Part shown: in pieces, positions 432 to 12,286 of the stretch
Layout of the letters: every line of letters begins with the position of its first letter
Numbering within the stretch: the first letter of the stretch is position 1
NCBI GenBank assembly: GCA_019242465.1
Contig: JAFAVL010000309.1
Span: 1-15,028 of the forward strand
Length of the DNA stretch: 15,028 bases
Direction of reading: 5' to 3'
From: Chroococcidiopsidaceae cyanobacterium CP_BM_RX_35
Lineage (GTDB): Bacteria; Cyanobacteriota; Cyanobacteriia; Cyanobacteriales; Chroococcidiopsidaceae
Program-made: the position numbers and the translations under genes
Notes under the pieces: model-generated
Told to the model about the DNA's origin: nothing
Database searches by the model: none
Seen by the model: the letters and a program-made list of their open reading frames with translations, nothing else

Positions 432-2078
432 TCAAGATTTCATTAAGGAACGTTGAGGCTGACGTAGCTTTTGAGAATAGAATGAGGCAGATTCCTCGCC
501 CATAGCACACTCTTGAGCAAATTGAATTAAATGATGACCAACAAGCCCCACATGAATTAAATTTTCGATTTCGCCTGCTTTCAGTTCTGGTAGAGCCATC
601 TGCCAGAAAGTTTTACGGTAATGACTCATAAGACCTACCCTTAGAAAAATATTGCTCATGATGGTCAAACCTTTGCAGATATTAGCCCAAGAAGCACGGG
701 TTGGACTATTTGGGACTTTAATGCGATTCGGGTAGGTATGTTTTATATTGTAGGCAAATCGCTGATATAGAAATTCTGGCTCATAGGCGGCGGTGATACA
801 CCGACGCCACATCTTGATAACCTGTTCATAGGGCATCAAAAACTCGACATTAGATTCACGGTTTTCGTCGAAGACTAATCGCCCTTCCAATTCTAACCTG
901 CGCCAAAGTGGAGTTTTCGGTAACGCATGGAGCAGGTTAATGGTCAGCATGGGAATTTGGGACAGACGAATAAATTCAAGAATCCTGTCAGCTGTTTCCA
1001 ATGTATCTGTATCTAACCCGATAATAATACCCGATACAACCTCCATGCCGTAGCTGTTCAAAGTTTTAACTGCTTCTAAAATCGGGATGCTTAAATTCTG
1101 ATCTTTAGAGATAGCGTGAAGAGCATTAGGCTCAGGCGTTTCAATACCACAAAAAACTGTACAAAAGTAAGCTTCGCGCATCATTTCTAGCAGTTTTGGG
1201 CTCTGAGCTAGGTTAAGCGTGGCTTCACAAGCGAACTGAATCGGGTAGCCATTAAGCTTTTGCCACTCAATCAGGTGAGGTAGTAGCTTTGTGATGGCGC
1301 GGCGATCACCCACAAAATTGTCGTCTACGAAATACAGTGCCCCTGGGTTGCCAGATTCCAGCATCGTGTCCAGTTCAAAGAGAAGCTGTTCTGGAGTTTT
1401 AAAGCGAGGATTGCGACCGTAAAGTTCGGGAATATCACAAAACTCGCAGCGGTACGGGCAACCACTGGAGAACTGTACGTTGGCAAGGAAGTATTGATTA
1501 AGATTCAGTAAGTGGTAGGCGGGGGTAGGAAACTTGCTGAGGGGTAAACGCTCTTTAGTTTCAAACCGAATCTGTTGAGCAGGACGTTCTGTGTGTTGGT
1601 CTATGTACTCAATCATCAAATCAGTAGCATCCCCCAACTCTCCTAAGTGCAAAATATCAAATTCGGGGTAGTATTCTGGACAGCCACTTACTGAAGGACC
1701 TCCCACAATCGTGATTTTGCCCCAACGATGGGCGAGGTCATTAATTTGATTGATATGAGGACGCTGGATATGCATCCCGCTCACAATTAGGACATCGGCC
1801 CATTGATAGTCAGCTTGTGATGCCGGGTTGATATTTTCATCAATAAAGCGGACCTCCCAGTTTTGGGGTAAATAGGCAGCCACAACTAAAATACCTTGGG
1901 GCGGCATAAAAGCCCGAACATTATTCACTAATGGGTATGCGTAATGAAAGGTACCAAATGAGCGGCTGTACTTTGGAAAGATGCAGAGGATGCGTCGCTG
2001 GTGACGAGCAATGTAGTGGGATCTTTGAGCAGTGTTTTCAGAAGTTGGCGGATCTAATTCCTTTGGTTTAACAGTCAT
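432..2078 (-). CDS. hpnP: B12-binding radical SAM protein, probable hopanoid C-2 methylase HpnP
   Basis: This 548-aa protein has a cobalamin-binding fold at about residues 25-165 (VGGPSV at 125-130, a GELGD element near 146), then a radical SAM domain with C207, C211 and C214 as the CxxxCxxC [4Fe-4S] ligands. Further radical SAM landmarks are VDDNF at 251-255 and GIETP at 311-315, and a DUF4070-like tail follows from about residue 400. The N-terminal SFGTFHYAYP...RAFMPPQG block is, from memory, characteristic of HpnP, which uses S-adenosylmethionine and cobalamin to methylate hopanoids at C-2. The start at 2078 has GGAGG four bases upstream. It lies 12 bp behind the squalene synthase homologue on the same strand, so the two are probably one operon, and that neighbour supports a hopanoid role. 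The main alternative is another DUF4070 radical SAM paralogue of unknown substrate. Confidence 0.72.
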   Translation of the reverse strand: MTVKPKELDPPTSENTAQRSHYIARHQRRILCIFPKYSRSFGTFHYAYPLVNNVRAFMPPQGILVVAAYLPQNWEVRFIDENINPASQADYQWADVLIVSGMHIQRPHINQINDLAHRWGKITIVGGPSVSGCPEYYPEFDILHLGELGDATDLMIEYIDQHTERPAQQIRFETKERLPLSKFPTPAYHLLNLNQYFLANVQFSSGCPYRCEFCDIPELYGRNPRFKTPEQLLFELDTMLESGNPGALYFVDDNFVGDRRAITKLLPHLIEWQKLNGYPIQFACEATLNLAQSPKLLEMMREAYFCTVFCGIETPEPNALHAISKDQNLSIPILEAVKTLNSYGMEVVSGIIIGLDTDTLETADRILEFIRLSQIPMLTINLLHALPKTPLWRRLELEGRLVFDENRESNVEFLMPYEQVIKMWRRCITAAYEPEFLYQRFAYNIKHTYPNRIKVPNSPTRASWANICKGLTIMSNIFLRVGLMSHYRKTFWQMALPELKAGEIENLIHVGLVGHHLIQFAQECAMGEESASFYSQKLRQPQRSLMKS

Positions 2079-2090
2079 CCTCCCTCCAAA

Positions 2091-2993
2091 CTACTCAACA
2101 CATGTTCCGCCCTTTCCAGCAGCAAAACTGCAGTACTCATTATCAGCCTCAGGACGGTTAGCAGATTTTTGCCATGATACACCAGTTACCTGCGCAATGA
2201 GAGTAAGAACAGCACTACGACTAAGTTTGGGTTCACCGCGACTCAGAGTACCAAGTGTAGCATACGCCAGAGTCAGCGGAATTTTACAAAATTCTAAAGC
2301 CGGACCCAACGAAAGAGCTTTTGTGTAAGCATCAGCAAGCGTCAGATTACGCTGCGCATAGGCATAGAAATCTTCTCGATTCCAACCATCTGGAAAAAAA
2401 TCGACCCCTCGTGCCAGATCTTCGGTGCGGTTACGTAGAATGTTGACAGCTTGTAAGCCTCGACCAAAGCCGATCGCCTGGGGTCGGCTGGTGTTGGTGC
2501 CATCATACCAGGCCCACAAGTCAGAGAGTAACAATCCTACAGCACCAGCTACCCCGAACGTGTAGCGGTCTAAATCAGCTTCTGTGCGGATCGCCCAGTT
2601 ATGGGAAGCCCAGTAAGCCATTCGGTCTGCCATCGCTGCTGTTGCATCCCAAATGCGAGGCGCAATCGTTGCTGGAGCAAGTTCAGCCCATTCTTGAATC
2701 CGAATTGACACCTCCGGCAGTGGGGGTCCTTGATGTAAAGATAACAAGACCGAAAAGTCTTCAACAGGACAACCATCAACTGCTGCTTGTAGGGACAGGC
2801 TGATAGCTTGTAACAGCTTTGCTTTTGTTTGGTTATCCAGTTTTGGGTGATCTTCAATTTCATCAATGGCACGCATACATAAGTATGCTGATGCAACTGC
2901 TTCTTGCAGTCCTGCTGGTAAGCGACTGATTGGAATGTAAAAAGTCCGACTAGTCTCCTTAAGTATATCCAAAGCATTTTTACGCAAATCCAT
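2091..2993 (-). CDS. sqs: Squalene/phytoene synthase family protein, probable squalene synthase
   Basis: This 300-aa soluble all-alpha prenyl synthase joins two prenyl diphosphates head to head; in this family the product is squalene or phytoene. The first aspartate-rich motif is DEIED at 44-48, within the conserved AYLCMRAIDEIED stretch. The second motif is NILRNRTED at 184-192 followed by FFPDGW, with asparagine (N188) where most relatives have the first aspartate of DxxED. I chose the ATG at 2993 because MDLRKNALDILKETSRTF matches the family N-terminus and GAGGAG lies six bases upstream; an ATG at 3038 would add 15 residues and lacks such a site. It is the first gene of an operon with hpnP and has a leader of about 250 nt or more that contains palindromes and the shared promoter element. 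Squalene is the precursor of hopanoids, so squalene synthase is preferred over phytoene synthase. Confidence 0.75.
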   Translation of the reverse strand: MDLRKNALDILKETSRTFYIPISRLPAGLQEAVASAYLCMRAIDEIEDHPKLDNQTKAKLLQAISLSLQAAVDGCPVEDFSVLLSLHQGPPLPEVSIRIQEWAELAPATIAPRIWDATAAMADRMAYWASHNWAIRTEADLDRYTFGVAGAVGLLLSDLWAWYDGTNTSRPQAIGFGRGLQAVNILRNRTEDLARGVDFFPDGWNREDFYAYAQRNLTLADAYTKALSLGPALEFCKIPLTLAYATLGTLSRGEPKLSRSAVLTLIAQVTGVSWQKSANRPEADNEYCSFAAGKGGTCVE

Positions 2994-3193
2994 GTACACT
3001 CCTCTAAGCCACGTTGTAAGATTTTGAACACCAAACATCTTTTAGACAAAAGTTTGTCTTTTGCTAGAACCAAACTTAGTCACTTATACCAAGTAAACTG
3101 CTGGCTGAACGAGTCGGGTTTTGAGGTCGCATTGCATGTGTACAGATAACACACTGATCGCGCCACTCCCGCAAACCGTCTAGATGCATACTA

Positions 3194-3237
3194 AAAGTTA
3201 GGTAAGTAGCCCTTACCGGACTAACTTTAGAAAGTTA
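3194..3237. repeat. Competing palindromes in the squalene synthase leader
   Basis: AAAGTTAG (3194-3201) pairs with CTAACTTT (3221-3228), and inside it GTAAG (3202-3206) pairs with CTTAC (3212-3216), giving a two-part hairpin. TAACTTT (3222-3228) also pairs with AAAGTTA (3231-3237) across a 2-bp centre, forming a perfect 16-bp palindrome. The central arm can therefore pair with either flank. The site lies 12-55 bp downstream of the promoter element at 3249-3314, in the untranslated leader of the squalene synthase gene. It could be an operator or an RNA switch; nothing here decides which. Confidence 0.4.
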
Positions 3238-3248
3238 AATGGACTATT

Positions 3249-3314
3249 GCTTCTTCCTAAGGAATTAATCATCGTTTCTTGCCAAGGAGTAGAATTATTT
3301 CATATCAATTTCAT
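3249..3314 (-). promoter_or_regulatory. Shared composite promoter element, copy A (towards squalene synthase-hpnP)
   Basis: Read leftward, ATGAAA-TTGAT-ATGAAA (3314-3298) is a direct repeat with an 11-bp period, and TTAGGAAGAAGC follows at 3260-3249, 38 bp beyond the repeat. The -10 box is weaker than in the other copies (TTGGCAAGAAA in place of TTAGAWAYAAG). It sits about 305 bp upstream of the squalene synthase start, in the 2994-3403 gene-free region. The same arrangement recurs at 7146-7211, 9392-9458 and 12221-12286. Confidence 0.55.
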
Positions 3315-3403
3315 CTTTTTATGCAATGGTGAATTTTGGCAATCAATAAACCTTTTCATTCTAGGGAAATTAATGAGGTGGAATCCGCTCCTATTGCCCT
3401 TAA

Positions 3404-3826
3404 TTATTTAGCGGATATACCACTCACGCCCACAAGTGATGTAACGCCAGCCACGACTACCGCGACACCTACCCATCTCAGCCAGGTGACCCGCTCGTGA
3501 AGTATGATTTTGGCGAGGATGGTGTCAATGATGTAAGTAGACGACATTAGAGGCACAACCGTTACAACAGGAGCCGTTCGCATTGATAGGAGATAACCAC
3601 CAAAATGACCTGATAACACGACAACGCCTAAGATCAGTTTCCAGTTGTGGAAGATGCCGGACTGCCGGATGAACTTGAAAAGCTTCAATGGGTTAAGTAA
3701 TCCCCAGATACCGCCAAATGATTTAATGTCAACCTCGTTTAGCGCCTGGGAACCCTGTTTGATCAAAAAATCCCCAATGACAGAACAAATAATCGCCATA
3801 CTAATGCCAACTGCAAATAAAGTCAT
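3404..3826 (-). CDS. Small DMT/SMR-type membrane protein, second subunit of pair 1
   Basis: This 140-aa protein has four predicted transmembrane segments and resembles half-size EamA/SMR transporters such as ArnE, ArnF and EmrE. D19 lies in the first helix in a SVIGDFLIKQGS context, near where EmrE carries its essential acidic residue. Helix 3 has the TAPVVTVVPLMSSTY signature and helix 4 follows a HERVTWLRW turn. The start at 3826 is set by an ATGA overlap with the stop of the upstream partner, implying translational coupling; a longer frame to 3895 would run inside the partner gene and lacks family sequence. Two coupled, non-identical small subunits suggest a heterodimer. The substrate is unknown; a lipid or lipid-linked sugar is possible by analogy with ArnE/ArnF. 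A paralogue lies at 10265-10618. A 7-bp inverted repeat (3383-3389/3410-3416) spans the stop codon. Confidence 0.75.
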   Translation of the reverse strand: MTLFAVGISMAIICSVIGDFLIKQGSQALNEVDIKSFGGIWGLLNPLKLFKFIRQSGIFHNWKLILGVVVLSGHFGGYLLSMRTAPVVTVVPLMSSTYIIDTILAKIILHERVTWLRWVGVAVVVAGVTSLVGVSGISAK

Positions 3827-4311
3827 GATTTCTTGCCCTGTGCAGTAAATCCAATTATGACGACACCAATCAAGATGATCAAGATGGAACCCCACCGCTC
3901 AAGCGAAACCTTTTCATGCAGGAAAACCATGGCCAGCAAAGTTGTGGCCATATAGGTAGCAGCACCGCGCACTGGCACTACCAAACTTAGCGGACCGATG
4001 CGTAAGGTATGAGCGAAAGTGATGAATTGGATAATCATGAGTACGATCGCGATGTCTAGCCAAGGAATTGACAATGCCTCCACTACGGCATAGGGGATGC
4101 CTAAAGGAGAATCGACTTTTGGTGCTCGGTTGCCGCTCATGCTGTACTTGAGCAAGATATCAGCTGCTGATGACGATATAACGACTATGGCTAGAGAGAT
4201 CATAAAAGACTTAAGCTTCTCTCTTGGTACACCTCCAGTTTTCCCCTTCTTCCCTGTTGAGGAATCGTCTGACTGATTGTCATTTTCCGATTGATTATTT
4301 TTCTTAACCAC
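3823..4311 (-). CDS. Small DMT/SMR-type membrane protein, first subunit of pair 1
   Basis: This 162-aa protein opens with a polar, lysine/serine/asparagine-rich cytoplasmic tail (about 1-34), followed by four predicted membrane helices (roughly 36-54, 83-101, 108-130 and 139-156). D51 in SSSAADILLKYS sits in helix 1, and RIGPLSLVVPVRGAATY and FLHEKVSLERW are DMT-family landmarks. It overlaps the next gene by four bases (ATGA). The paralogue at 9807-10265 has the same layout: polar tail, GD in helix 1, and the LAxPLRA-type motif in helix 3. The gene is divergent from the carbamoyltransferase across about 200 bp, in which I see no copy of the shared promoter element, only a lone TTGAAACTAG near 4412. 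I infer one half of a heterodimeric transporter or flippase; the substrate cannot be read from the sequence. Confidence 0.75.
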   Translation of the reverse strand: MVKKNNQSENDNQSDDSSTGKKGKTGGVPREKLKSFMISLAIVVISSSAADILLKYSMSGNRAPKVDSPLGIPYAVVEALSIPWLDIAIVLMIIQFITFAHTLRIGPLSLVVPVRGAATYMATTLLAMVFLHEKVSLERWGSILIILIGVVIIGFTAQGKKS

Positions 4312-4518
4312 TGATGAGAACCTTCTTGAGGATGATTTAGAGCTTAATAGTGCTTTTAATGATTGTGACCCACCTCAAATTAGCAATCCATCTATCTAAA
4401 AGAGAATTAATATTGAAACTAGAGTTGTTCCAGCAATTTACCCTCTTCTCCTGATTTAGGATAGGTCTTTCGCTTGAACACTGCAAAGTCTAAATATCTA
4501 GAGATAAGGGTTCAGAAT

Positions 4519-6204
4519 GTGATATACAACTTAGGAGTGATTTGTTATTCAAGGCATGATGCAGCGGCAGTTTTAGTCGAAGATGGTTGTGTCGTGGCAG
4601 CCGCTGAGGAGGAGCGCTTTTCACGGAAAAAGCTTGATAGTAGTTTTCCCGCTCAGGCAATCAACTTTTGTTTGGCAAAAGTGGGAATTACTCCACAGGA
4701 TCTTGCCGCTATTGGTTATGGATTTCATCCAACACGGAGGTTTAGTTCACAAACCTTATATGTTGTTAAAAATCTTCCTAGATCTGTAGAATTGGTAGTT
4801 ACTGAGAGACCGTTTGTCCGTAAGATGAATGGCATCAAGCGGGATTTTCGCGAACATCTGGGCTATTCAGGTCCAGTGTATCAGTTGGGACATCATCTGT
4901 GTCATGCTGCCAGCACTTTTCTCGCCTCGCCCTTTGCTGAAGCTGCCATTCTCACCATCGATGGTTTAGGAGATTGGGAGTCTTGCTGGTGGGGTTTAGG
5001 TCAAGGTAATGAATTAACCGAACTGGGAAAGATTGATTGGCCTCAGTCTTTAGGACATGTTTATGCGGCTTTTACAGATTACTTAGGTTTCCAAGCCTTA
5101 TCCGATGAATATAAAGTCATGGGTTTGGCTGCTTATGGTGAGCCACGCTATTTGGCGCAGATGCAAGAGATATTCTGGGCAACCCCCCAAAGCTACCAAG
5201 TTAACCTGGACTATTTTAACTTTCAAACCAGGCATTGTTCTCCCTGGTTTAGCCCAAAACTAGTAGAGTGCTTTGGTCCAGCTTTGCGCGATACCAACAA
5301 AGATGTTCCACAGCACTACCGGGACATTGCGGCATCACTGCAAGCGCAATTAGAGCAAGTCATTTTTCACCTAGTACAGAAAGTTGTTGCCACAACTGGA
5401 AGTCGCAACCTCTGTCTGGCAGGTGGAGTGGCAATGAACTCAGTCGCCAACGGCAAAATCCTGACTCAAGGTTTAGTCGATGGCTTGTATGTCCCGCCTT
5501 GTGCTTCCGATGCCGGAGTGGCTCTAGGAGCAGCTTATCTAGCTTACAAAGCCACTACAGGCAAACTCCAGCGACAAGTGTTAGAAACGGCATTGCTCGG
5601 ACCAGAGTATGATGCTGAGCAAATTCTCGCTGCCATTAAAAGCCGAGGCTTGCAGGCAGAAGTTGTCAGCCACCCAGCCGCGAGTGCCGCACAACTTTTG
5701 GCTACAGGTAAAGTCATTGGTTGGTTCCAAGGACGGATGGAATTTGGTCCCAGGGCTTTAGGAGCGCGTTCGATCTTGGCTGACCCAAGACGGGCAGAAA
5801 TGCAAGATATTGTGAATACCAAGATTAAGTTTCGGGAGCGGTTTCGACCGTTTGCACCTTCAGCTTTGGCTGAATATGCTAGCGAATACTTCGACTGTCC
5901 AGCTCCCACACCGTTCATGACTCAGGTGTATTCAGTGCATCAGGATAAGCAAGCAACTATCCCTGCCGTCACCCATGTGGACGGGACAGCGAGAGTGCAG
6001 ACAGTATCCCAGTCAACCAACCCCTTGTACTGGGATTTGATTCATGCCTTTTATCAGCTCACAGGGGTGCCGATTGTGTTGAACACTTCTTTCAATGTCA
6101 AGGGACAACCGATTGTGAATACTCCAACTGAAGCTGTAGATACGTTTCTCAACACTGGGCTAGATGCTCTTTTGTGTGGCAACTATCTTGTTTTGAAAGA
6201 CTGA
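4519..6204 (+). CDS. NodU/CmcH-family carbamoyltransferase
   Basis: This 561-aa enzyme has the two-part build of O-carbamoyltransferases, which transfer a carbamoyl group from carbamoyl phosphate to a hydroxyl group through a carbamoyl-adenylate. The N-terminal Kae1-like domain shows RHDAAAVLVEDG at 12-23, EERFSRKK at 31-38, the metal-site HxxxH at H125/H129, an ILTIDGLGDWES strand at 144-155 and AGGVAMNSVANGKI at 301-314. The C-terminal domain shows EFGPRALGARSILADPR at 408-424, FRERFRPFAPS and LNTSFNVKGQPIV. I prefer the GTG start at 4519, with AAGGG eight bases upstream, because it puts the protein right at the family N-terminus; a TTG at 4474 would add 15 unrelated residues. It overlaps the convergent rhodopsin gene by 22 bp. 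The acceptor is unknown; neighbours suggest a hopanoid polyol or sugar, which is inference only. Confidence 0.85.
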   Translation: MIYNLGVICYSRHDAAAVLVEDGCVVAAAEEERFSRKKLDSSFPAQAINFCLAKVGITPQDLAAIGYGFHPTRRFSSQTLYVVKNLPRSVELVVTERPFVRKMNGIKRDFREHLGYSGPVYQLGHHLCHAASTFLASPFAEAAILTIDGLGDWESCWWGLGQGNELTELGKIDWPQSLGHVYAAFTDYLGFQALSDEYKVMGLAAYGEPRYLAQMQEIFWATPQSYQVNLDYFNFQTRHCSPWFSPKLVECFGPALRDTNKDVPQHYRDIAASLQAQLEQVIFHLVQKVVATTGSRNLCLAGGVAMNSVANGKILTQGLVDGLYVPPCASDAGVALGAAYLAYKATTGKLQRQVLETALLGPEYDAEQILAAIKSRGLQAEVVSHPAASAAQLLATGKVIGWFQGRMEFGPRALGARSILADPRRAEMQDIVNTKIKFRERFRPFAPSALAEYASEYFDCPAPTPFMTQVYSVHQDKQATIPAVTHVDGTARVQTVSQSTNPLYWDLIHAFYQLTGVPIVLNTSFNVKGQPIVNTPTEAVDTFLNTGLDALLCGNYLVLKD

Positions 6205-6926
6205 ATACTATGATAAGCGCTATTTTGAATGTACGATTTAACGTCTGTCATCATGCTACTAGACGCCTGTACTAAGACTTGCTTGTTCTTAGTAAGAACA
6301 AAGCCAAAGCCTACCTTAGATAAGATATCTACAACAGTATATGAGAATGCTTCCCAACCAGGGCTAATCAGATCTAACCCTTCAGGACCAATTATCCAAG
6401 TTAGTGGGTAACCCGTCCAAACAACGATGAGTTGCAATTTTAACTTATTGAACAGTTGTTTTACCTTGGAATTGCGGTTTGCAGCACTTGCCGAAAACTC
6501 AGTTAAGATTGCTGTAACAATGGCAATGAAAGCTCCGCAACTGATAATGTACCAGACGAGATTGCTTGGCTTTGTCGAAAAGTTCCCAACTAATCCTCCT
6601 AAGATCATGAATATATCTGCTGCCATTACGCCTGCTATAAGTTTAGGACGTAATCCAGCTACAAGACCAAGATTAAGCAACAACAAAGGGGTAGCGACGA
6701 GCCAGTCTATATAGCGCCCCCAGTAGACCTCGCGACCCTGAAATATAGTCACTGTCTGATGGAAAATCATGGTTAGGTAGAGTGCTGCGCTCCAAAGCAC
6801 TACGAAGAAGCTTAGCAGAGGGAACTCCACCCCTTCTTGTCGCCTCATCCTAGCTGCTTTAACACCAAATACAAGCGCTGCCAAGTCAAAGACTATAAAA
6901 TTGACCCAAAGCCAAATCTGTGTCAT
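6183..6926 (-). CDS. Microbial (type I) rhodopsin with an unusual helix C motif
   Basis: This 247-aa, seven-helix retinal protein aligns well with bacteriorhodopsin (BR). K204 in VVDILSKVGFGF is the Schiff-base lysine, with counterion D200 (BR D212). Helix C reads YWGRYIDWLVATPLLLLNL, giving R71 (R82), D74 (acceptor D85), A78 (T89) and N85 (donor D96). D103 matches BR D115, W170/Y173/P174/W177 match the helix F retinal pocket, and E182 and E192 match the proton-release pair E194 and E204. It therefore keeps acceptor, counterion and release group but lacks the carboxylate donor. It is unlike Anabaena sensory rhodopsin, which lacks the D212 counterion, and no transducer gene is adjacent. Function could be a slow outward proton pump or a sensor. 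Start 6926 has only a weak AGAAGA upstream. The C-terminal tail after about 215 is polar. Confidence 0.9.
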   Translation of the reverse strand: MTQIWLWVNFIVFDLAALVFGVKAARMRRQEGVEFPLLSFFVVLWSAALYLTMIFHQTVTIFQGREVYWGRYIDWLVATPLLLLNLGLVAGLRPKLIAGVMAADIFMILGGLVGNFSTKPSNLVWYIISCGAFIAIVTAILTEFSASAANRNSKVKQLFNKLKLQLIVVWTGYPLTWIIGPEGLDLISPGWEAFSYTVVDILSKVGFGFVLTKNKQVLVQASSSMMTDVKSYIQNSAYHSIQSFKTR

Positions 6927-7034
6927 AGAATCTTCTAGCTTGAAGAGATTGAGATATTGTCTTTAGACTGAATAATTAGTAACATTGTTGCATCGATTTT
7001 CAGCTAAAGAGCTAACAAGGTAATGTAAATTGAA

Positions 7035-7056
7035 GTGAATTGAATAAGCAATTCAC
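7035..7056. repeat. Perfect 8-bp inverted repeat upstream of the rhodopsin gene
   Basis: GTGAATTG (7035-7042) and CAATTCAC (7049-7056) are perfect complements around a 6-bp centre. The site is 109 bp upstream of the rhodopsin start, in the AT-rich 6927-7262 intergenic region shared with the gene at 7263. An operator for a dimeric regulator is plausible. The only other marked structure in this region is the promoter element at 7146-7211. Confidence 0.35.
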
Positions 7057-7145
7057 CCACTATCTACAGATATATGAATTGCCGACCTAAAAATAAATTA
7101 TATCAATTGTCTAATACATTTTGCGGTTAAGAAATGTCAATAAAA

Positions 7146-7211
7146 GTGAAATTAGTATGAATTTATTCTATTTACTTAGATACAAGTGAGCAATAAGCCA
7201 TTAGAAAGAAG
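7146..7211 (+). promoter_or_regulatory. Shared composite promoter element, copy C (towards the 135-aa membrane protein)
   Basis: GTGAAA-TTAGT-ATGAAT (7146-7162) forms the 11-bp-period direct repeat. TTAGATACAAG begins 14 bp beyond it (7176), so that TACAAG at 7181 is at the -10 position. TTAGAAAGAAG follows at 7201-7211, 39 bp after the repeat, the same spacing as in copy B. Read rightward, the element is about 100 bp upstream of the start at 7263, the shortest leader of the four copies. It could also influence the divergent rhodopsin gene, whose start is 220 bp away. Confidence 0.55.
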
Positions 7212-7262
7212 TAAGTATTTGTCTAATTTTATAACCTAAGTTTAGGAAAAAATATAATAGGG

Positions 7263-7670
7263 ATGGCTAATATGTATACTGATGAATCTTTTAAACTCCA
7301 TGCATCTGCTGCTGATAATAGTTTTACCCAGGTAAATTTGATTGAGACAAAACCTGTTAAGGCACATTCTGATACAACAAATTTAAATGGGGCTAAGGCG
7401 GTTAGAGCCGCTACGCCTGATAGCGCAATTCTTTTAGTTCCTATTTTCTCTATAATGGTTTGGATGATTGTCGCTTCTAAGCTTCCAGGGGTTTGGAAGG
7501 AGGCAAGGAATAGAATTGTGAGTCTCAATCAGTTGGAGCCAATGCCCTGTAGAAACTGTCGATTCTTTGTAAACAATCATTATCTCAAATGTGCAGTGCA
7601 GCCTTCTATTGTTCTAACTCCACAAGCACTCAAGTGCTCTGACTACTGGCCTGATCATAGGCCTTACTGA
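7263..7670 (+). CDS. Single-pass membrane protein with a C-terminal four-cysteine cluster, function unknown
   Basis: This 135-aa protein has a polar N-terminal half, one hydrophobic segment at about 54-73 (SAILLVPIFSIMVWMIVASK), and a C-terminal domain with C96, C99, C110 and C125 in a PCRNCRFF...YLKCAV...LKCSDYWP pattern. The CxxC-x10-C-x14-C spacing could bind a metal ion or an iron-sulfur cluster. I have the impression that this tail recurs in cyanobacterial hypothetical proteins, but I know no function. The start is uncertain: ATG 7263 abuts an AGGG, whereas ATG 7272, three codons in, has GGGATGG five bases upstream. It stands alone, with a copy of the shared promoter element about 100 bp upstream. 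Confidence 0.7.
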   Translation: MANMYTDESFKLHASAADNSFTQVNLIETKPVKAHSDTTNLNGAKAVRAATPDSAILLVPIFSIMVWMIVASKLPGVWKEARNRIVSLNQLEPMPCRNCRFFVNNHYLKCAVQPSIVLTPQALKCSDYWPDHRPY

Positions 7671-7827
7671 ATAATAAGCGGCAATTAAGTATTCCTCTCC
7701 ATCAAGCGGGGCAGGGTTTGAGTCATCTAAATTTTCGAGGGGCAATCTTGAAAACATTCTCCTGTCAGTCACGCCTGCAATGTGAATTGGAGGAGAAAAA
7801 ACCAAATGAACTAGGGAAAAGACAGTA

Positions 7828-8904
7828 ATGTCAAGCTTTAGATATAGAGACAGGATAGAGAACCAAATTACCCGTGGAGCGCCCCTAGCATTAGTGATGG
7901 CAGCGATCGCCTTTGTGCTTTATAAACTAGTAATAGTGCTTGAGATCTTGGCTGTGGCGGTGCTGTTAGCTCTAGTTCTGCGAACTCTTCTACGGTGGTT
8001 ACAAAGAATTTTCAAGCTGCGCTGGCTATCAATACTCGTACTGATACTGCTAATAATAGGGTTTGGAGCCTTTATTGCACTGGTGCTAATCCCCGGCTTC
8101 ATATCTGAGACTCAAACTTTGATTGCGAAATTGCCAGACTATGCCAACTCTTTACAGAATTTGGCGGCTAGATTGCACAATCGATGGAGCTTTATTCCGA
8201 GTATCTCCTCCATAAACTTGAATCGGCTGAGAGGATATCTTGAAGGGATACTGACTTCCGTTCCACTGCTAGCCAGAAACTCTTTTAGTGGCGCTATTGA
8301 GACCATTGGTACAATCATTTTAGCCCTCTACATGGCCTACGACCCTAATTCTGTGATTCGCGGTATCTTGCGACTCATACCGCGTCGGCACCATGAGAAG
8401 TTTAAGGAGTTTCTCCACTCTTGTGAGGTGCGGTTGCGGGGCTGGATTTTTGGGACAGGAGTTGCCATGTTTTTTATTGGTGTCGGAGCTGGGGTTGGTC
8501 TCTGGTTTATCGGAGTTCCGTTGCCCATCTCCTTTGGTGTCTTTGCCGGATTTTTTGAGATTATTCCCTACTTTGGCTCGATTGCCGGTGCAGTGCTGCC
8601 TGCGTTGATAGCGCTGACAACTCCTAACGGTCTAATGAAGGCAGTCTATGTCTTGGCATTATTTCTGGTTTTGAACCAAATAGACGCTCACCTGATCCAA
8701 CCACTAATTATGGGTAGACAGGTGCATGTGAGCCCAGTCATGGTCATCGTTTCTTTTTTAGTTATGGGTGAACTGTTTGGATTCGTTGGGGTACTGGTGG
8801 CAGTTCCAGCGGCAGCAGTTGTTGTGACTCTAGTGGATGAGTACACTCCAAAGGAGCGTCAACAAGATGCACCAAAAGCTAAAACCGAAAACTACAATCC
8901 CTAG
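7828..8904 (+). CDS. AI-2E/PerM family membrane protein (UPF0118)
   Basis: This 358-aa polytopic protein has the AI-2E transporter family layout: an N-terminal group of hydrophobic helices (about 18-90), a soluble amphipathic segment (about 95-150, with SETQTLIAKLPDYANSLQNLAARL), then further helices. Family landmarks in the second half are GVPLPISFGVFAGFFEIIPYFGSI and NQIDAHLIQPLIMGRQVHVSPVMVIVS, ending with a charged tail. Members have been linked to autoinducer-2 export or sodium/proton exchange, but most cyanobacterial members have no assigned substrate. The ATG at 7828 has AGGG 11 bases upstream. A stronger GGAGGAG (7789-7795) instead precedes a two-codon ORF ATG-AAC-TAG at 7806-7814. 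It converges on the DUF2141 gene with a 20-bp gap. Confidence 0.88.
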   Translation: MSSFRYRDRIENQITRGAPLALVMAAIAFVLYKLVIVLEILAVAVLLALVLRTLLRWLQRIFKLRWLSILVLILLIIGFGAFIALVLIPGFISETQTLIAKLPDYANSLQNLAARLHNRWSFIPSISSINLNRLRGYLEGILTSVPLLARNSFSGAIETIGTIILALYMAYDPNSVIRGILRLIPRRHHEKFKEFLHSCEVRLRGWIFGTGVAMFFIGVGAGVGLWFIGVPLPISFGVFAGFFEIIPYFGSIAGAVLPALIALTTPNGLMKAVYVLALFLVLNQIDAHLIQPLIMGRQVHVSPVMVIVSFLVMGELFGFVGVLVAVPAAAVVVTLVDEYTPKERQQDAPKAKTENYNP

Positions 8905-8915
8905 CAATTTCGGTT
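8883..8915. terminator. Candidate terminator between convergent genes
   Basis: AACCGAAA (8883-8890) and TTTCGGTT (8908-8915) form an 8-bp perfect stem that straddles the stop codon of the AI-2E family gene. On the minus strand the stem is followed by TTTTAGCTTTT, so it fits best as the terminator of the DUF2141 gene. On the plus strand the downstream sequence is only weakly T-rich. Confidence 0.4.
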
Positions 8916-8924
8916 ATTCTCAAC

Positions 8925-9320
8925 TTATAGGTACTTCATAGTAATTTCGACAACGTTGCTTTCGGCTGTAAACTCAAATTCTGCTTGGTGAAACTTAGGT
9001 GCCCCTTTCCACACCTTTGGGTCCTTAGAAAAGCCAAAACCCTCTTTAGGAAAACCGAGAGTTCCTGTGTCAAATTCATTATTCGAATTCTCGTCATGGT
9101 ATAAGGTCACAGCATAATGTCCATACGGCAGGTCTTCAATGGTAATAGTAAGGGGAACTTCTGAGACAGGAACTTGCCCTGTTTTGGTAGCTTTAGATGT
9201 ATCAGTAGGAAACCCTTCTGGAGTTGAAAACAGGGCAAAATGTACAAGACCTTGTTTCTTACGCAGTTCACTCACTTTGAGTGCTAGAGACGGTGTTTCT
9301 TTTGCTTGTGTAGAACTCAT
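8925..9320 (-). CDS. DUF2141 domain protein
   Basis: This 131-aa protein matches DUF2141, a beta-sandwich-like domain: LVHFALFSTPEGFP at 25-38, LPYGHYAVTLYHDENSNNEFD at 64-84, LGFPKEGFGFS at 88-98 and a closing VVEITMKYL strand. Most family members I know of are exported, but this one has no signal peptide: its N-terminus is polar (MSSTQAKETPSLALKVSEL). A cytoplasmic location is therefore likely unless it leaves by another route. The biochemical function of DUF2141 is not established. It starts 72 bp from copy B of the shared promoter element, though that element points away from it. No clear Shine-Dalgarno site precedes the ATG at 9320. Confidence 0.85.
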   Translation of the reverse strand: MSSTQAKETPSLALKVSELRKKQGLVHFALFSTPEGFPTDTSKATKTGQVPVSEVPLTITIEDLPYGHYAVTLYHDENSNNEFDTGTLGFPKEGFGFSKDPKVWKGAPKFHQAEFEFTAESNVVEITMKYL

Positions 9321-9391
9321 TGACTGAACGAATTTGGTGTTTAACGACTTATTCTAGTATAAGCATGATAGATATATAAACAAGAGAGAAA

Positions 9392-9458
9392 ATGAAACTA
9401 GCATGAAACTTTTATGTTTAATTAGATATAATCTAACTTTGTTCCTTTAGAAAGAAGC
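9392..9458 (+). promoter_or_regulatory. Shared composite promoter element, copy B (towards SMR pair 2)
   Basis: ATGAAACTAGCATGAAA (9392-9408) is the clearest 11-bp-period direct repeat. TTAGATATAATC follows with TATAAT at 9427-9432, exactly where a -10 box would sit if the repeat covers the -35 region. TTAGAAAGAAGC is at 9447-9458, 39 bp beyond the repeat. The orientation points to the SMR pair starting at 9807, which implies a leader of about 370 nt. Within that leader, in the 9321-9806 gene-free region, lies a GCCAAA/TTTGGC inverted repeat (9684-9703) and no credible ORF. Confidence 0.6.
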
Positions 9459-9806
9459 TTTTTTTCCTAGTTCTTTGCACAGTGATTGCAGCAAAAAGTC
9501 TTACTTTTTCCTGGTAAACAAAAGGTAGCAGACGTGAATTCGGTGTAGCGCAATTCCTGAGTACATAGAAGGTTTGAAGCCAAGATTTACCAATTTTGCG
9601 ATTTCGTGAAGAAAAGAAGAAGTTACAAATCTTGTCTTTGGGTTAGAACAAATATTTTAAGATGCTAGACAAATTAAGCTTTTGCCAAATTAAAAATTTT
9701 GGCTTTACAATGATTTTATGTTTAATATCACGACTTGGTTATAATTGAGCATAGTTTGGAATATTAATTTCAAGCTATGTCAACATGTATAGCACTAACA
9801 AGATGA

Positions 9807-10265
9807 ATGCCTAACCCAATAAAGACTAAACCCTTGTTGCCGAAGCAGAAAGACCAGCAAACCTCAAGACAGGTTCGTCAAAGGTTCGCTGTGGCTATGA
9901 TCATCGTCGTACTAGCTACATCATTGGGAGACGTGTCACTCAAAGGTGGTTTGAGCCAGGTGCCACTTCCTTCGGCAGACTCTCTTTTAGCTATTCCCCA
10001 AGCTGTGCTGGAGACACTGACGAACATCTGGGTAGATATTGCTATCCTATTGCTGATTGGTCAATTCATCGCTTGGGCTCATGCCCTACGCTTGGCTCCA
10101 TACAGTCTTGCCATTCCACTACGCGCCTCCTCATATATCTTTACCGCTTTATTGGCACTTTACGTTCTACAGGAGCCGGTTCCGCCCATGCGTTGGGTTG
10201 CCATTCTGATCGTTCTGCTTGGTGTCATTATGGTGGGAGTTAGTGGTGTAGAAGGAGATAGCTAA
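9807..10265 (+). CDS. Small DMT/SMR-type membrane protein, first subunit of pair 2
   Basis: This 152-aa protein has a polar N-terminal tail (1-26), then four predicted helices (about 27-47, 75-92, 98-121 and 129-147). D42 in ATSLGDVSLKGG lies in helix 1, RLAPYSLAIPLRASSY corresponds to RIGPLSLVVPVRGAATY of the paralogue at 3823-4311, and VLQEPVPPMRW precedes helix 4. It overlaps the next gene by one base (TAATG), so the pair is translationally coupled like pair 1. The ATG at 9807 has no good Shine-Dalgarno site. It is convergent with the HpnI-like gene beyond its partner. Likely half of a heterodimeric exporter or flippase; the substrate is unknown. Confidence 0.75.
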   Translation: MPNPIKTKPLLPKQKDQQTSRQVRQRFAVAMIIVVLATSLGDVSLKGGLSQVPLPSADSLLAIPQAVLETLTNIWVDIAILLLIGQFIAWAHALRLAPYSLAIPLRASSYIFTALLALYVLQEPVPPMRWVAILIVLLGVIMVGVSGVEGDS

Positions 10266-10618
10266 TGCTTCTATTTTTGGTAGCGATGAGCGTAGCGATT
10301 AGCTGCTCAATCTTAGGGGACTTTTTCGTGCAGCAGGGTGCTACTGCGGTTAAAAGCTCTAACGCCTGTTCCTTCTGTGGCATCTTTCGCCATCGAAAAA
10401 TGCTTTTCGGTGTTGGTCTGTTGACTTGCCATTTTGCTGGCTATACCCTAGCAATGCGACTAGCTCCCATTACAGTGGTTGTGCCTCTGATGTCATGTAC
10501 TTACATTGTTAATATTGCCCTGGCTCGCACTGTACTTCAGGAGCGGGTAACGAGACTGAGATGGGCAGGTGTTGCTGTGATCGTGTTCGGCGTCATAGTG
10601 CTTGGCATCTGGTCGTGA
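10265..10618 (+). CDS. Small DMT/SMR-type membrane protein, second subunit of pair 2
   Basis: This 117-aa protein is the paralogue of the 140-aa protein at 3404-3826. The two share MSVAISCSILGDFFVQQGA against ISMAIICSVIGDFLIKQGS (D19 in both), LAPITVVVPLMSCTYI and LQERVTRLRWAGVAV. It lacks about 20 residues of the loop between helices 1 and 2, and carries two extra cysteines there (NACSFCGIF). The size is close to that of ArnE. Start and stop are fixed by the TAATG overlap with the upstream partner and a TGA at 10616-10618. Confidence 0.75.
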   Translation: MLLFLVAMSVAISCSILGDFFVQQGATAVKSSNACSFCGIFRHRKMLFGVGLLTCHFAGYTLAMRLAPITVVVPLMSCTYIVNIALARTVLQERVTRLRWAGVAVIVFGVIVLGIWS

Positions 10619-10651
10619 AACACAGGCAATGATAATCTCAAGAGGCTATTG

Positions 10652-10685
10652 TGGGTTCCTTTGCTTGTTAAGCACCCATAACCCA
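10652..10685. terminator. Possible bidirectional terminator, nested hairpin
   Basis: TGGGTT (10652-10657) pairs with AACCCA (10680-10685) around an inner GCTT-GTT-AAGC hairpin (10663-10673). It fills the 68-bp gap between the convergent SMR pair 2 and HpnI-like genes. There is no clear T run on either side, so this is a position-based guess. Confidence 0.3.
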
Positions 10686-10686
10686 T

Positions 10687-11943
10687 TCAACTTGAAAGTG
10701 CCTTTACAGAATCAACGGTATCATCTGTAAGTGGTATGAGCTTCCCATCTTTTGCCAGTTTCAGTCTTCGACCACGCCACTCGATCGTGTTGCCAGCAAA
10801 ACTGTAGCACCATAGTGCAAGGCTCATAAGGTCGCGTAGAGGAATAAGCCACAGAAACTTTTTAGCCACCGGATCGTGAAGCCCCTTAACACCAACAACC
10901 CAGCCCATTGCTAATCTTGTGATCCAAGTTATACATAGCACCACCCAACCGAAAATCGAGCCCCCAGTTGCCATCAAGAAAAATAAGCTTGTTGCTGTTC
11001 CATAGGTAAGGAGAAGACCTAAGTAGCTCCAAGGTCGAGACACCCGGACACAGCAAGCCCAACGGCTCTGACGGTGGATTAAATCAATTATGTTTGTTGT
11101 TGCGATGACATGCTCAATTACATAATGGGAGAGTTCCACCTTATAACCAGCTTGGGCGGGTAGGTAGCCGAGTTGGAAATCATCTGCCAGATAATCGGCA
11201 ATTGCCGCAAATCCACCGATGGCTTCGAGTGCAGTTTGGCGGATCGCAATAGTTGGGCCGAGGGCAAACTTCATTCCCTCCAGCTTTCTAGCAGCTAAAA
11301 CGCCAGCTTGGTAATCGGTTGAAATCCCAACTGCTTCCAGGATTGCCACCCTACCTCGCACCAGCGGACGGTACAGACAGGTAACGACACCAACATCCTG
11401 GTTGCGCATCGGCTGGATGGTTTGCCTCAAGTAGTCCGGTCCGACCCGAACGTCACTATCTGCCAAGAGCAGAAATGAGTACCGGGCTTCGGTTACTGCA
11501 TTTGCTAGGTTACTAACTTTTAGATTTGTACCAATTGTCCTCTCACTTACCACAAGACGAATATCAATATTTGGGAAATTATGAATTATTCTCTTCACAA
11601 CTTCCACGCTAGGATCGCGCTCATGACGAACACTAAAAATGATTTGGTACTCTGGGTAGTCTTGCCGGCAGAATGATGCAAAGTTTTCGTAGGTGTCGAT
11701 GTCGAGACCACAAATCGGTTTCAAAATAGTAATAGGTGGATGAAAATCAGGATCGCTCTGGGGTGGGTGGGAAAAGAACTCAGTCGCTGCATAAATTGTA
11801 TATGAATAATACCAAATTGCTGATAGGCACAGCATCAGAAGTAGTATCAGAAGATATTGTCTAGGGTCTCTTAATGCAGAGTAGTGACCAAGTTCTATAA
11901 CTGCCTGGTACCTTACCTCTGCCAGCTCTAGAAAAGTAGTCAT
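10687..11943 (-). CDS. hpnI: GT21-type glycosyltransferase, probable HpnI (bacteriohopanetetrol N-acetylglucosaminyltransferase)
   Basis: This 418-aa membrane glycosyltransferase has one N-terminal helix (about 29-51), a cytosolic family 2/21 catalytic domain and a C-terminal hydrophobic region with three or more segments (about 305-383). The GT-A motifs are intact: PITILKPICGLD at 70-81, the metal-binding D162-S-D164, D254-D255-F256-Q-L-G and RQSRW at 291-295, the RxxRW signature of processive and ceramide-type enzymes. HpnI transfers N-acetylglucosamine to bacteriohopanetetrol, the first step towards glucosamine- and cyclitol ether-hopanoids; a ceramide glucosyltransferase-like role is the alternative. 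Partner genes hpnK and hpnJ are not in the window. The start at 11943 has GAAG a few bases upstream. About 330 bp further upstream is copy D of the shared promoter element, which links it to the squalene synthase-hpnP operon. Confidence 0.78.
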   Translation of the reverse strand: MTTFLELAEVRYQAVIELGHYSALRDPRQYLLILLLMLCLSAIWYYSYTIYAATEFFSHPPQSDPDFHPPITILKPICGLDIDTYENFASFCRQDYPEYQIIFSVRHERDPSVEVVKRIIHNFPNIDIRLVVSERTIGTNLKVSNLANAVTEARYSFLLLADSDVRVGPDYLRQTIQPMRNQDVGVVTCLYRPLVRGRVAILEAVGISTDYQAGVLAARKLEGMKFALGPTIAIRQTALEAIGGFAAIADYLADDFQLGYLPAQAGYKVELSHYVIEHVIATTNIIDLIHRQSRWACCVRVSRPWSYLGLLLTYGTATSLFFLMATGGSIFGWVVLCITWITRLAMGWVVGVKGLHDPVAKKFLWLIPLRDLMSLALWCYSFAGNTIEWRGRRLKLAKDGKLIPLTDDTVDSVKALSS

Positions 11944-12220
11944 GATTCTTCAAATAGAGATAGGTGTGAGTAAAATTGCAAATTTATTTTGGACAACCAT
12001 AAAAAGCTCATGATTTAGGCTCTGCTTCCTTTTGGATTAATATCACTTCCGCATGAACAAGAATCATTGGTAGCTCGCTATCATTTAATCTTGTAATTAC
12101 GTTTATTATTGATGATAATTCTAAGAGTAGAATCTGAGTTGGTTTTCTAAAAACTTTCCGATTAGCTTTATAAAATATCCTGTCCCGTTAAGCTCACACT
12201 ATATACTTGTTGAAATTAGC

Positions 12221-12286
12221 GCTTCTTTCTAATGGGGGAATATAGCTTATTTCTAATGGATTAAAAGAATTTCATACTAGTTTCAT
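12221..12286 (-). promoter_or_regulatory. Shared composite promoter element, copy D (towards hpnI)
   Basis: Read leftward, ATGAAACTAGTATGAAA (12286-12270) is the 11-bp-period direct repeat. CCATTAGAAATAAG follows, with its TTAG starting 14 bp beyond the repeat, and CCATTAGAAAGAAGC has its TTAG at 12232, 38 bp beyond. The two CCATTAGAAA boxes are themselves a direct repeat with a 24-bp period. The element lies 327 bp upstream of the hpnI start, implying a leader of nearly 300 nt. Confidence 0.58.

Follow-up and report, generated by a model that had tools for sequence, protein, structure and literature searches.

A composite promoter element upstream of hopanoid and membrane genes in a Chroococcidiopsidaceae cyanobacterium and its probable CopR/RppA-family regulator

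A 15,028-nucleotide stretch of the genome of the Chroococcidiopsidaceae cyanobacterium CP_BM_RX_35 (contig JAFAVL010000309.1 of assembly GCA_019242465.1; hereafter the window) carries four copies of a composite element, located upstream of squalene synthase-hpnP, of a gene for a 135-aa protein with four cysteines, of a pair of SMR/EamA genes (pair 2) and of hpnI. The recurrence of this element is genuine, and it functions as part of promoters. It includes a direct repeat, ATGAAA-N5-ATGAAA, a middle box, a third box of the type TTAGRAAGAAG (box 3) and, at a fixed distance from box 3 in most copies, the hexamer TANNNT. We consider it probable that the element forms the regulatory portion of promoters under an OmpR/PhoB-type regulator of the CopR/RppA family (NCBIfam NF041734), whose ancestral role was copper/metal defence and whose regulon has since widened.

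The element in the window and in other genomes

A search of the window with ATGAAAYTAGYATGAAA, allowing up to three mismatches, matched at 3314-3298 and 12286-12270 on the reverse strand and at 7146-7162 and 9392-9408 on the forward strand, and nowhere else in the window. These are the four places and strands that the initial annotation of this DNA had described. In 200 dinucleotide shuffles of the window ATGAAAYTAGYATGAAA matched 0.23 times on average and twice at most, compared with the four matches observed. Alignment of four 201-bp stretches around the copies demonstrated conserved boxes and flanks that align poorly.

Copy 1, on the reverse strand upstream of squalene synthase-hpnP, includes the direct repeat at 3298..3314 (conserved in locus L076), a weak middle box, TTGGCAAGAAA, at 3275..3285, box 3, TTAGGAAGAAG, at 3250..3260 and a predicted -10, TAAAGT, at 3224..3229, with 9/9 positions identical in L076. 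The direct repeats of the other three copies are conserved in loci L001 and L095. Copy 2, on the forward strand upstream of the four-cysteine protein gene, has its repeat at 7146..7162, its middle box, TTAGATACAAG, at 7176..7186, box 3, TTAGAAAGAAG, at 7201..7211 and a predicted -10 region, TATAACCT, at 7230..7237 (L095: 9/9 identical). Copy 3, also on the forward strand and upstream of SMR/EamA pair 2, consists of the repeat at 9392..9408, the middle box TTAGATATAAT at 9422..9432 and the same box 3, TTAGAAAGAAG, at 9447..9457. Copy 4, on the reverse strand upstream of hpnI, has its repeat at 12270..12286, its middle box, TTAGAAATAAG, at 12246..12256, box 3, again TTAGAAAGAAG, at 12222..12232 and a predicted -10 region, TATAGTGT, at 12196..12203 (L095: 9/9 identical).

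The middle box had been placed 13-14 bp beyond the second hexamer, which is true of copies 2 to 4 (13 bp) and not of copy 1 (12 bp). The distance reported for TTAGRAAGAAG, 38 or 39 bp, exceeds by one the 37 bp (copies 1 and 4) or 38 bp (copies 2 and 3) that we found, a difference of counting. In copies 1, 2 and 4 a further box that had not been described, TANNNT, follows the start of TTAGRAAGAAG by 31 bp. As to other kinds of element, an RNA element was rejected, with no Rfam family matching at the gathering threshold, and a leader peptide read from ATGAAANNNNNATGA was set aside, as that reading follows from the repeat itself.

A scan for relatives of hpnI identified 15 loci. The closest, L001, belongs to a draft metagenome-assembled genome (MAG) of the Chroococcidiopsidaceae, G001, and its hpnI is 91% identical to that of the window. 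In L001 the element precedes hpnI, the four-cysteine gene and SMR pair 2, and on a separate contig of G001 the element precedes squalene synthase-hpnP, so that all four orthologous genes are covered. Over the four orthologous pairs, the repeat (78/88 identical), box 3 (54/60) and the new -10 (33/36) are conserved, compared with 156/220 in the upstream and 175/268 in the downstream flanks. The middle box is the weak part of the element, as its conservation (45/60) is no better than that of the adjoining spacers (33/44, 21/32 and 51/68).

Two profiles were used to follow the element further. R1 is a sequence-only profile of seven copies (four from the window and three from L001) from which the TANNNT region was excluded. 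In G001 it yielded 37 matches at E ≤ 10 and 24 at E ≤ 1e-3, three of the latter being training copies, and it matched 16 of 19 genomes of the family at E ≤ 0.1. R2 is a wider profile that includes the -10 and was built from 35 copies (20 from the window and G001, and 15 hand-picked copies from the family); since most G001 copies were used to train it, its E-values in G001 are flattered and R1 is the fairer of the two. R2 had 31 matches in G001, matched 17/19 family genomes at E ≤ 0.01 and, in a class-wide sample of 291 genomes, detected the element at E ≤ 1e-5 in 42, G001 and G015 included. Such promoters can therefore be detected with the profile in many cyanobacteria. The 17-mer alone is a poor classifier, with 37 matches in G001 at up to three mismatches compared with 19 for the reversed pattern.

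Over 76 loci, which were chosen for holding matches or repeats so that the counts inform position and not frequency, R2 had 115 matches (4 in the window, 30 in G001, 23 in the family and 58 in the class). Two of these lie inside long open reading frames (ORFs), and for 101 an ORF on the same strand starts no more than 500 bp away. When positions were drawn at random in these loci, 60% fell inside ORFs and 24% had such an ORF start (57% for random intergenic placements). The scatter of matches inside genes that the initial annotation had named as speaking against a promoter element was thus not seen.

Both anchor columns were present in 27 of 30 R1 matches (4 in the window and 23 in G001), and these were used to count TANNNT. 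The hexamer begins 31 bp after the start of box 3 in 14 of the 27 copies and 32 bp after it in five more, giving 19/27 (3 in the window and 16 in G001). Averaged over 280 offsets, the background is 0.77 copies; the second-ranking offset, -48, reaches six copies and lies inside the repeat. The spacing between the repeat and box 3 is also fixed, at 54 or 55 bp in 24/27 copies.

G001 also contains a related family of repeats, ATATGAARCTGATATGA, without box 3 (L269:1936, L269:2791, L270:1303, L271:2679 and L272:4317). A same-strand ORF start within 600 bp is mostly absent from these repeats, which are possibly sites of another regulator.

The candidate regulator and competing explanations

If transcription starts ~7 bp after TANNNT, as we assume, the regulator would bind ATGAAA-N5-ATGAAA far upstream, at about -98 and -87. 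It would probably make more contacts at the middle box (~-68) and at TTAGRAAGAAG (~-43 to -33, where a -35 would sit), and from these sites would recruit sigma-70 polymerase to the TANNNT -10. It would activate rather than repress. Its older role, copper/metal defence, would still be seen in relatives, while the window's lineage would have added envelope and stress genes to the regulon, squalene synthase-hpnP and hpnI among them. The signal may be copper, redox or osmotic.

Promoters with several sites for an OmpR/PhoB-family regulator are known, examples being ompF and those of PhoP of Bacillus. The element resembles them in its one-turn direct repeat and in the possible weaker sites that extend to -35 without a clear -35 box; it differs in the distance of 24-25 bp between boxes 2 and 3, which is not a whole number of turns, and in the sequence of these boxes, which is unlike the repeat. 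The repeat itself is a known kind of operator. Its one-turn period fits the OmpR/PhoB type suggested in the initial annotation, and that assignment is further supported by its likeness to the cop repeats and by the co-occurrence of CopR/RppA genes.

The likeness to the cop repeats was found in Synechocystis sp. PCC 6803, where genes of the plasmid pSYSX are annotated as DUF305, rppA, rppB and an RND pump. Gene order and PMC4284471 identify them as copM, copR (slr6040), copS and copBAC. Upstream of copM and copB we found the same hexamers with the same 11-bp period as in the window, on the opposite strand, so ATGAAA/TTTCAT hexamers with this period are common to the window element and to the CopR sites of copMRS and copBAC. 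The CopR site is given as TTCATN4-5TTCAT in PMC4182526, where it was also located by in silico search upstream of mntC and in the interval between nrsRS and nrsBACD. No full composite was seen in the cop promoters: R2 matches their repeat only, and TTTCAT reads toward the gene. Unlike them, the window element has its repeat far upstream, with box 3 and TANNNT at a fixed distance, and elements of its type sit on hopanoid, glycan and membrane genes.

Synechocystis CopR and the G001 regulator belong to one NCBIfam family. The latter reaches 377 bits against NF041734 (cut-off 250) and is 59% identical to CopR. The segment SNVVAAxxRLLRR in the DNA-binding domain, which we take to be the recognition helix, is common to CopR and eight relatives, including the G001 regulator. 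Further homologs, with 60-72% identity, were found in 13 of the 96 loci searched; at least 11 of the 13 are listed with R2 matches, L126 has one such match and L142 the repeat only. NCBIfam files the regulators adjoining the element as RppA and the kinase of L126 as RppB, a likeness to the RppA/NrsR (sll0797)-RppB system of Synechocystis.

Regulator gene and element also occur together. A homolog at E ≤ 1e-75 is encoded in 41 of the 42 genomes with the element (E ≤ 1e-5, with stricter filters), G051 being the exception, and in 89 of the 249 without it (Fisher 2e-15, a figure that ignores genome size and kinship). With G001 and G015 left out, at least 21 of 40 genomes have the regulator gene no more than 10 kb from an element. 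The distance is at most 2 kb in at least seven genomes, and in L208, L209, L212 and L223 the arrangement is divergent, with the element in between. In genomes of the family, repeats are found within copper-resistance islands that include rppAB, on plasmids predicted to be conjugative, in Chroococcidiopsis thermalis PCC 7203 (G011:C3) and Gloeocapsa PCC 7428 (G013:C5). RppB above the cut-off is present in both, and the RppA/RppB pair is complete there and incomplete in G001.

Several observations weigh against control by a CopR/RppA-family regulator. Counted strictly, the cop promoters read TTCAT-N6-TTCAT, compared with the published N4-5, and with respect to the gene their repeat has the opposite orientation. 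Eighty-nine genomes have a close homolog of the regulator and yet lack the element at E ≤ 1e-5, and the linkage may come partly from the clustering of copper genes. In G001 the regulator gene itself has a weak element upstream (E 0.0015), three loci exceed the RppA cut-off (an intact one on C323, one on C131 with an internal stop and one on C112 at 250.8 bits), and RppB is absent above its cut-off from this draft MAG (best 218 of 400 bits). A match to copper-storage proteins (Csp), whose likes form the largest group behind the element elsewhere, was not found in G001 in a search that lacked a positive control. Finally, a review (PMC13421787) gives the motif of Synechocystis RppA sll0797 as AAMAWCTCYYWCCCC, which is unlike the element. 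Family membership therefore does not fix specificity, and the case rests on CopR. As a separate observation, the C131 copy of the regulator gene (L267:4710-5093) is 84% identical to the intact one.

Were the G001 regulator an orphan, Hik2 would be a candidate input: this sodium-inhibited kinase passes phosphate to RppA in vitro, as deduced in PMC4751278 from the loss of phosphate from Hik2.

Two regulators may instead share the element: the repeat would be bound by a CopR-type protein, and TTAGRAAGAAG and the -10 by a second factor or an alternative sigma factor. We regard this as possible, though doubtful. The sequence of box 3 is unlike that of the repeat, and in some genomes R2 also matches box 3 and the -10 without the repeat (e.g. 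L157, L158, L160 and L173). However, the matches of this kind have low significance (E 7e-5 to 3e-3) and contain GCGATCGC, an octamer that is abundant in cyanobacteria, and the fixed spacing between repeat and box 3 also speaks against two regulators. The four loci come from different genomes; their promoters look orthologous, and similar-looking start regions follow them.

It is unlikely that another regulator of the OmpR type acts at the repeat and that the CopR/RppA gene is linked to it only through the clustering of copper genes. Many OmpR-type regulators are encoded in G001, and another motif is reported for sll0797; against this stand the same repeat before Synechocystis copM and copB, reported CopR targets, and the close, in four loci divergent, arrangement of regulator gene and element.

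The layout proposed in the initial annotation, with the repeat covering -35 and the middle box as -10, is less credible still; it would place TTAGRAAGAAG in the first transcribed bases, acting in RNA or as a downstream operator. A repeat adjoining -35 is the usual layout for OmpR/PhoB-type regulators. Copy 3 fits this layout and so speaks against ours, as the downstream TANNNT, expected 31 bp after the start of box 3, is absent, and its middle box provides a possible -10, TATAAT, in ATGAAA-18-TATAAT, which agrees with sigma-70 at 10/12 positions. In most copies the layout is probably wrong: the middle box has A where a -10 requires T6 in 22/29 copies, it is no better conserved than the spacers, and TANNNT is found downstream in 19/27. 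Chance similarity or copies of a mobile repeat, which the AT-rich motif and the closeness of several copies to each other might suggest, can be practically dismissed given the shuffles and the rarity of matches inside long ORFs, and a mobile repeat is ruled out, as the initial annotation had concluded from the flanks, by their failure to align and by conservation at orthologous places.

In searches of open-licence full texts we noticed no report that describes the composite, places Csp genes under its control or puts hopanoid genes under a regulator of this kind. The literature on OrrA and desiccation was considered as a source of the motif and rejected, as one passage from it contained no such motif.

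Target genes and the hopanoid link

The largest group of downstream genes joined by BLAST follows 30 of the 101 matches and is typified by a DUF326 protein. The best PDB match of the one member tested is the copper-storage protein CSP3 (1.5e-25). Smaller groups across the loci include flavodoxins, metal P-type ATPases, DUF305 proteins and others, and a multicopper oxidase is also found among the targets in relatives. The profile results suggest that CopR/RppA-family regulators widely target copper-storage-like proteins. The distinct targets in G001 number 26 and are mostly envelope, stress or unassigned genes. They include SMR pair 2, two four-cysteine proteins, a GH15/trehalase-like enzyme, two GMC oxidoreductases, one heavy-metal-type P-ATPase and LmeA-like, beta-lactamase-fold, peptidoglycan-binding and SDR proteins.

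Hopanoid genes account for two of these 26 targets, squalene synthase-hpnP and hpnI. The shc gene of G001 (contig C36), which the initial annotation had suggested examining, is matched by neither R1 nor R2, and the commonest target in relatives is a copper-storage-like protein. The regulon is thus not centred on hopanoid tailoring, as had been proposed. Thirteen other cyanobacterial hpnI loci (L014 left out) have no repeat at E ≤ 0.5; L007 alone among them has two weak partial matches in which the repeat is missing. A hpnP with 92% identity was found only in G001 among the 19 family genomes, the others reaching at most 40%. The most fitting reading of the hopanoid link is that it was added in this lineage specifically; it is known from only two organisms.

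A more specific proposal, which we put forward tentatively as one that could well prove wrong, is that in this Chroococcidiopsis-like lineage a copper-type regulator lost its kinase and became an envelope-stress regulator of about 25 promoters of fixed design, activating hopanoid and other genes. Squalene supply, C-2 methylation and glycosylation of the hopanoid head group would then be switched on jointly, together with glycan, redox and small membrane-protein genes. Hopanoid fossils serve as markers of ancient life, and the value of 2-methylhopanes as biomarkers depends in part on what triggers cyanobacteria to make 2-methylhopanoids. Their physiological roles are described as not fully understood, with stress protection suggested, in PMC10697835 (2023). 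If the envelope-stress proposal is true, 2-methylhopane abundance would partly record metal, redox or osmotic stress. The element points to a candidate regulator and to exact sites, and it allows a transcription start to be predicted.

In the window, the first target of copy 1 is a squalene synthase-like gene at 2091..3038 on the reverse strand (Pfam SQS_PSY, 92 bits, above the Pfam cut-off and below the NCBIfam cut-offs). Behind it, at 432..2078 on the same strand, lies an hpnP-like B12/radical SAM gene identified with Pfam (hopanoid C-2 methylase, the source name of 7 of the 120 listed homologs of this protein). The target of copy 2 is the 135-aa four-cysteine protein gene at 7263..7670 on the forward strand, with no Pfam, NCBIfam or PHROGs match. 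SMR/EamA pair 2, the target of copy 3, is at 9807..10618 on the forward strand (Pfam EamA; the second gene is below the cut-off), and hpnI, the target of copy 4, is at 10687..11943 on the reverse strand (TIGR03472, 354 bits; cut-off 310). EamA/SMR pair 1 was found with Pfam/NCBIfam at 3404-4311 on the reverse strand. Further window genes identified with Pfam and NCBIfam encode an AI-2E-type permease, a DUF2141 protein, a class-III aminotransferase and HisIE.

The presence of two EamA/SMR pairs in one 15-kb window is a separate observation. Their best NCBIfam matches are weak and are to ArnE/ArnF and phosphonate-linked families; a role as a lipid or head-group flippase is conceivable. A carbamoyltransferase of the Carbam_trans_N/C family (4474-6204, forward strand) is found within the hopanoid/SMR neighbourhood and has a relative in L001. 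A bacteriorhodopsin-like gene (6183-6926, reverse strand; Pfam, 168 bits) is divergent from the four-cysteine gene, with copy 2 in between, and adjoins that gene in L001 too. A second small four-cysteine protein is encoded behind an element in G001 (L084:4845-5252, contig C151). It has a similar CxxC...C...C arrangement and no Pfam match, and may belong with the 135-aa protein of the window to one unnamed family.

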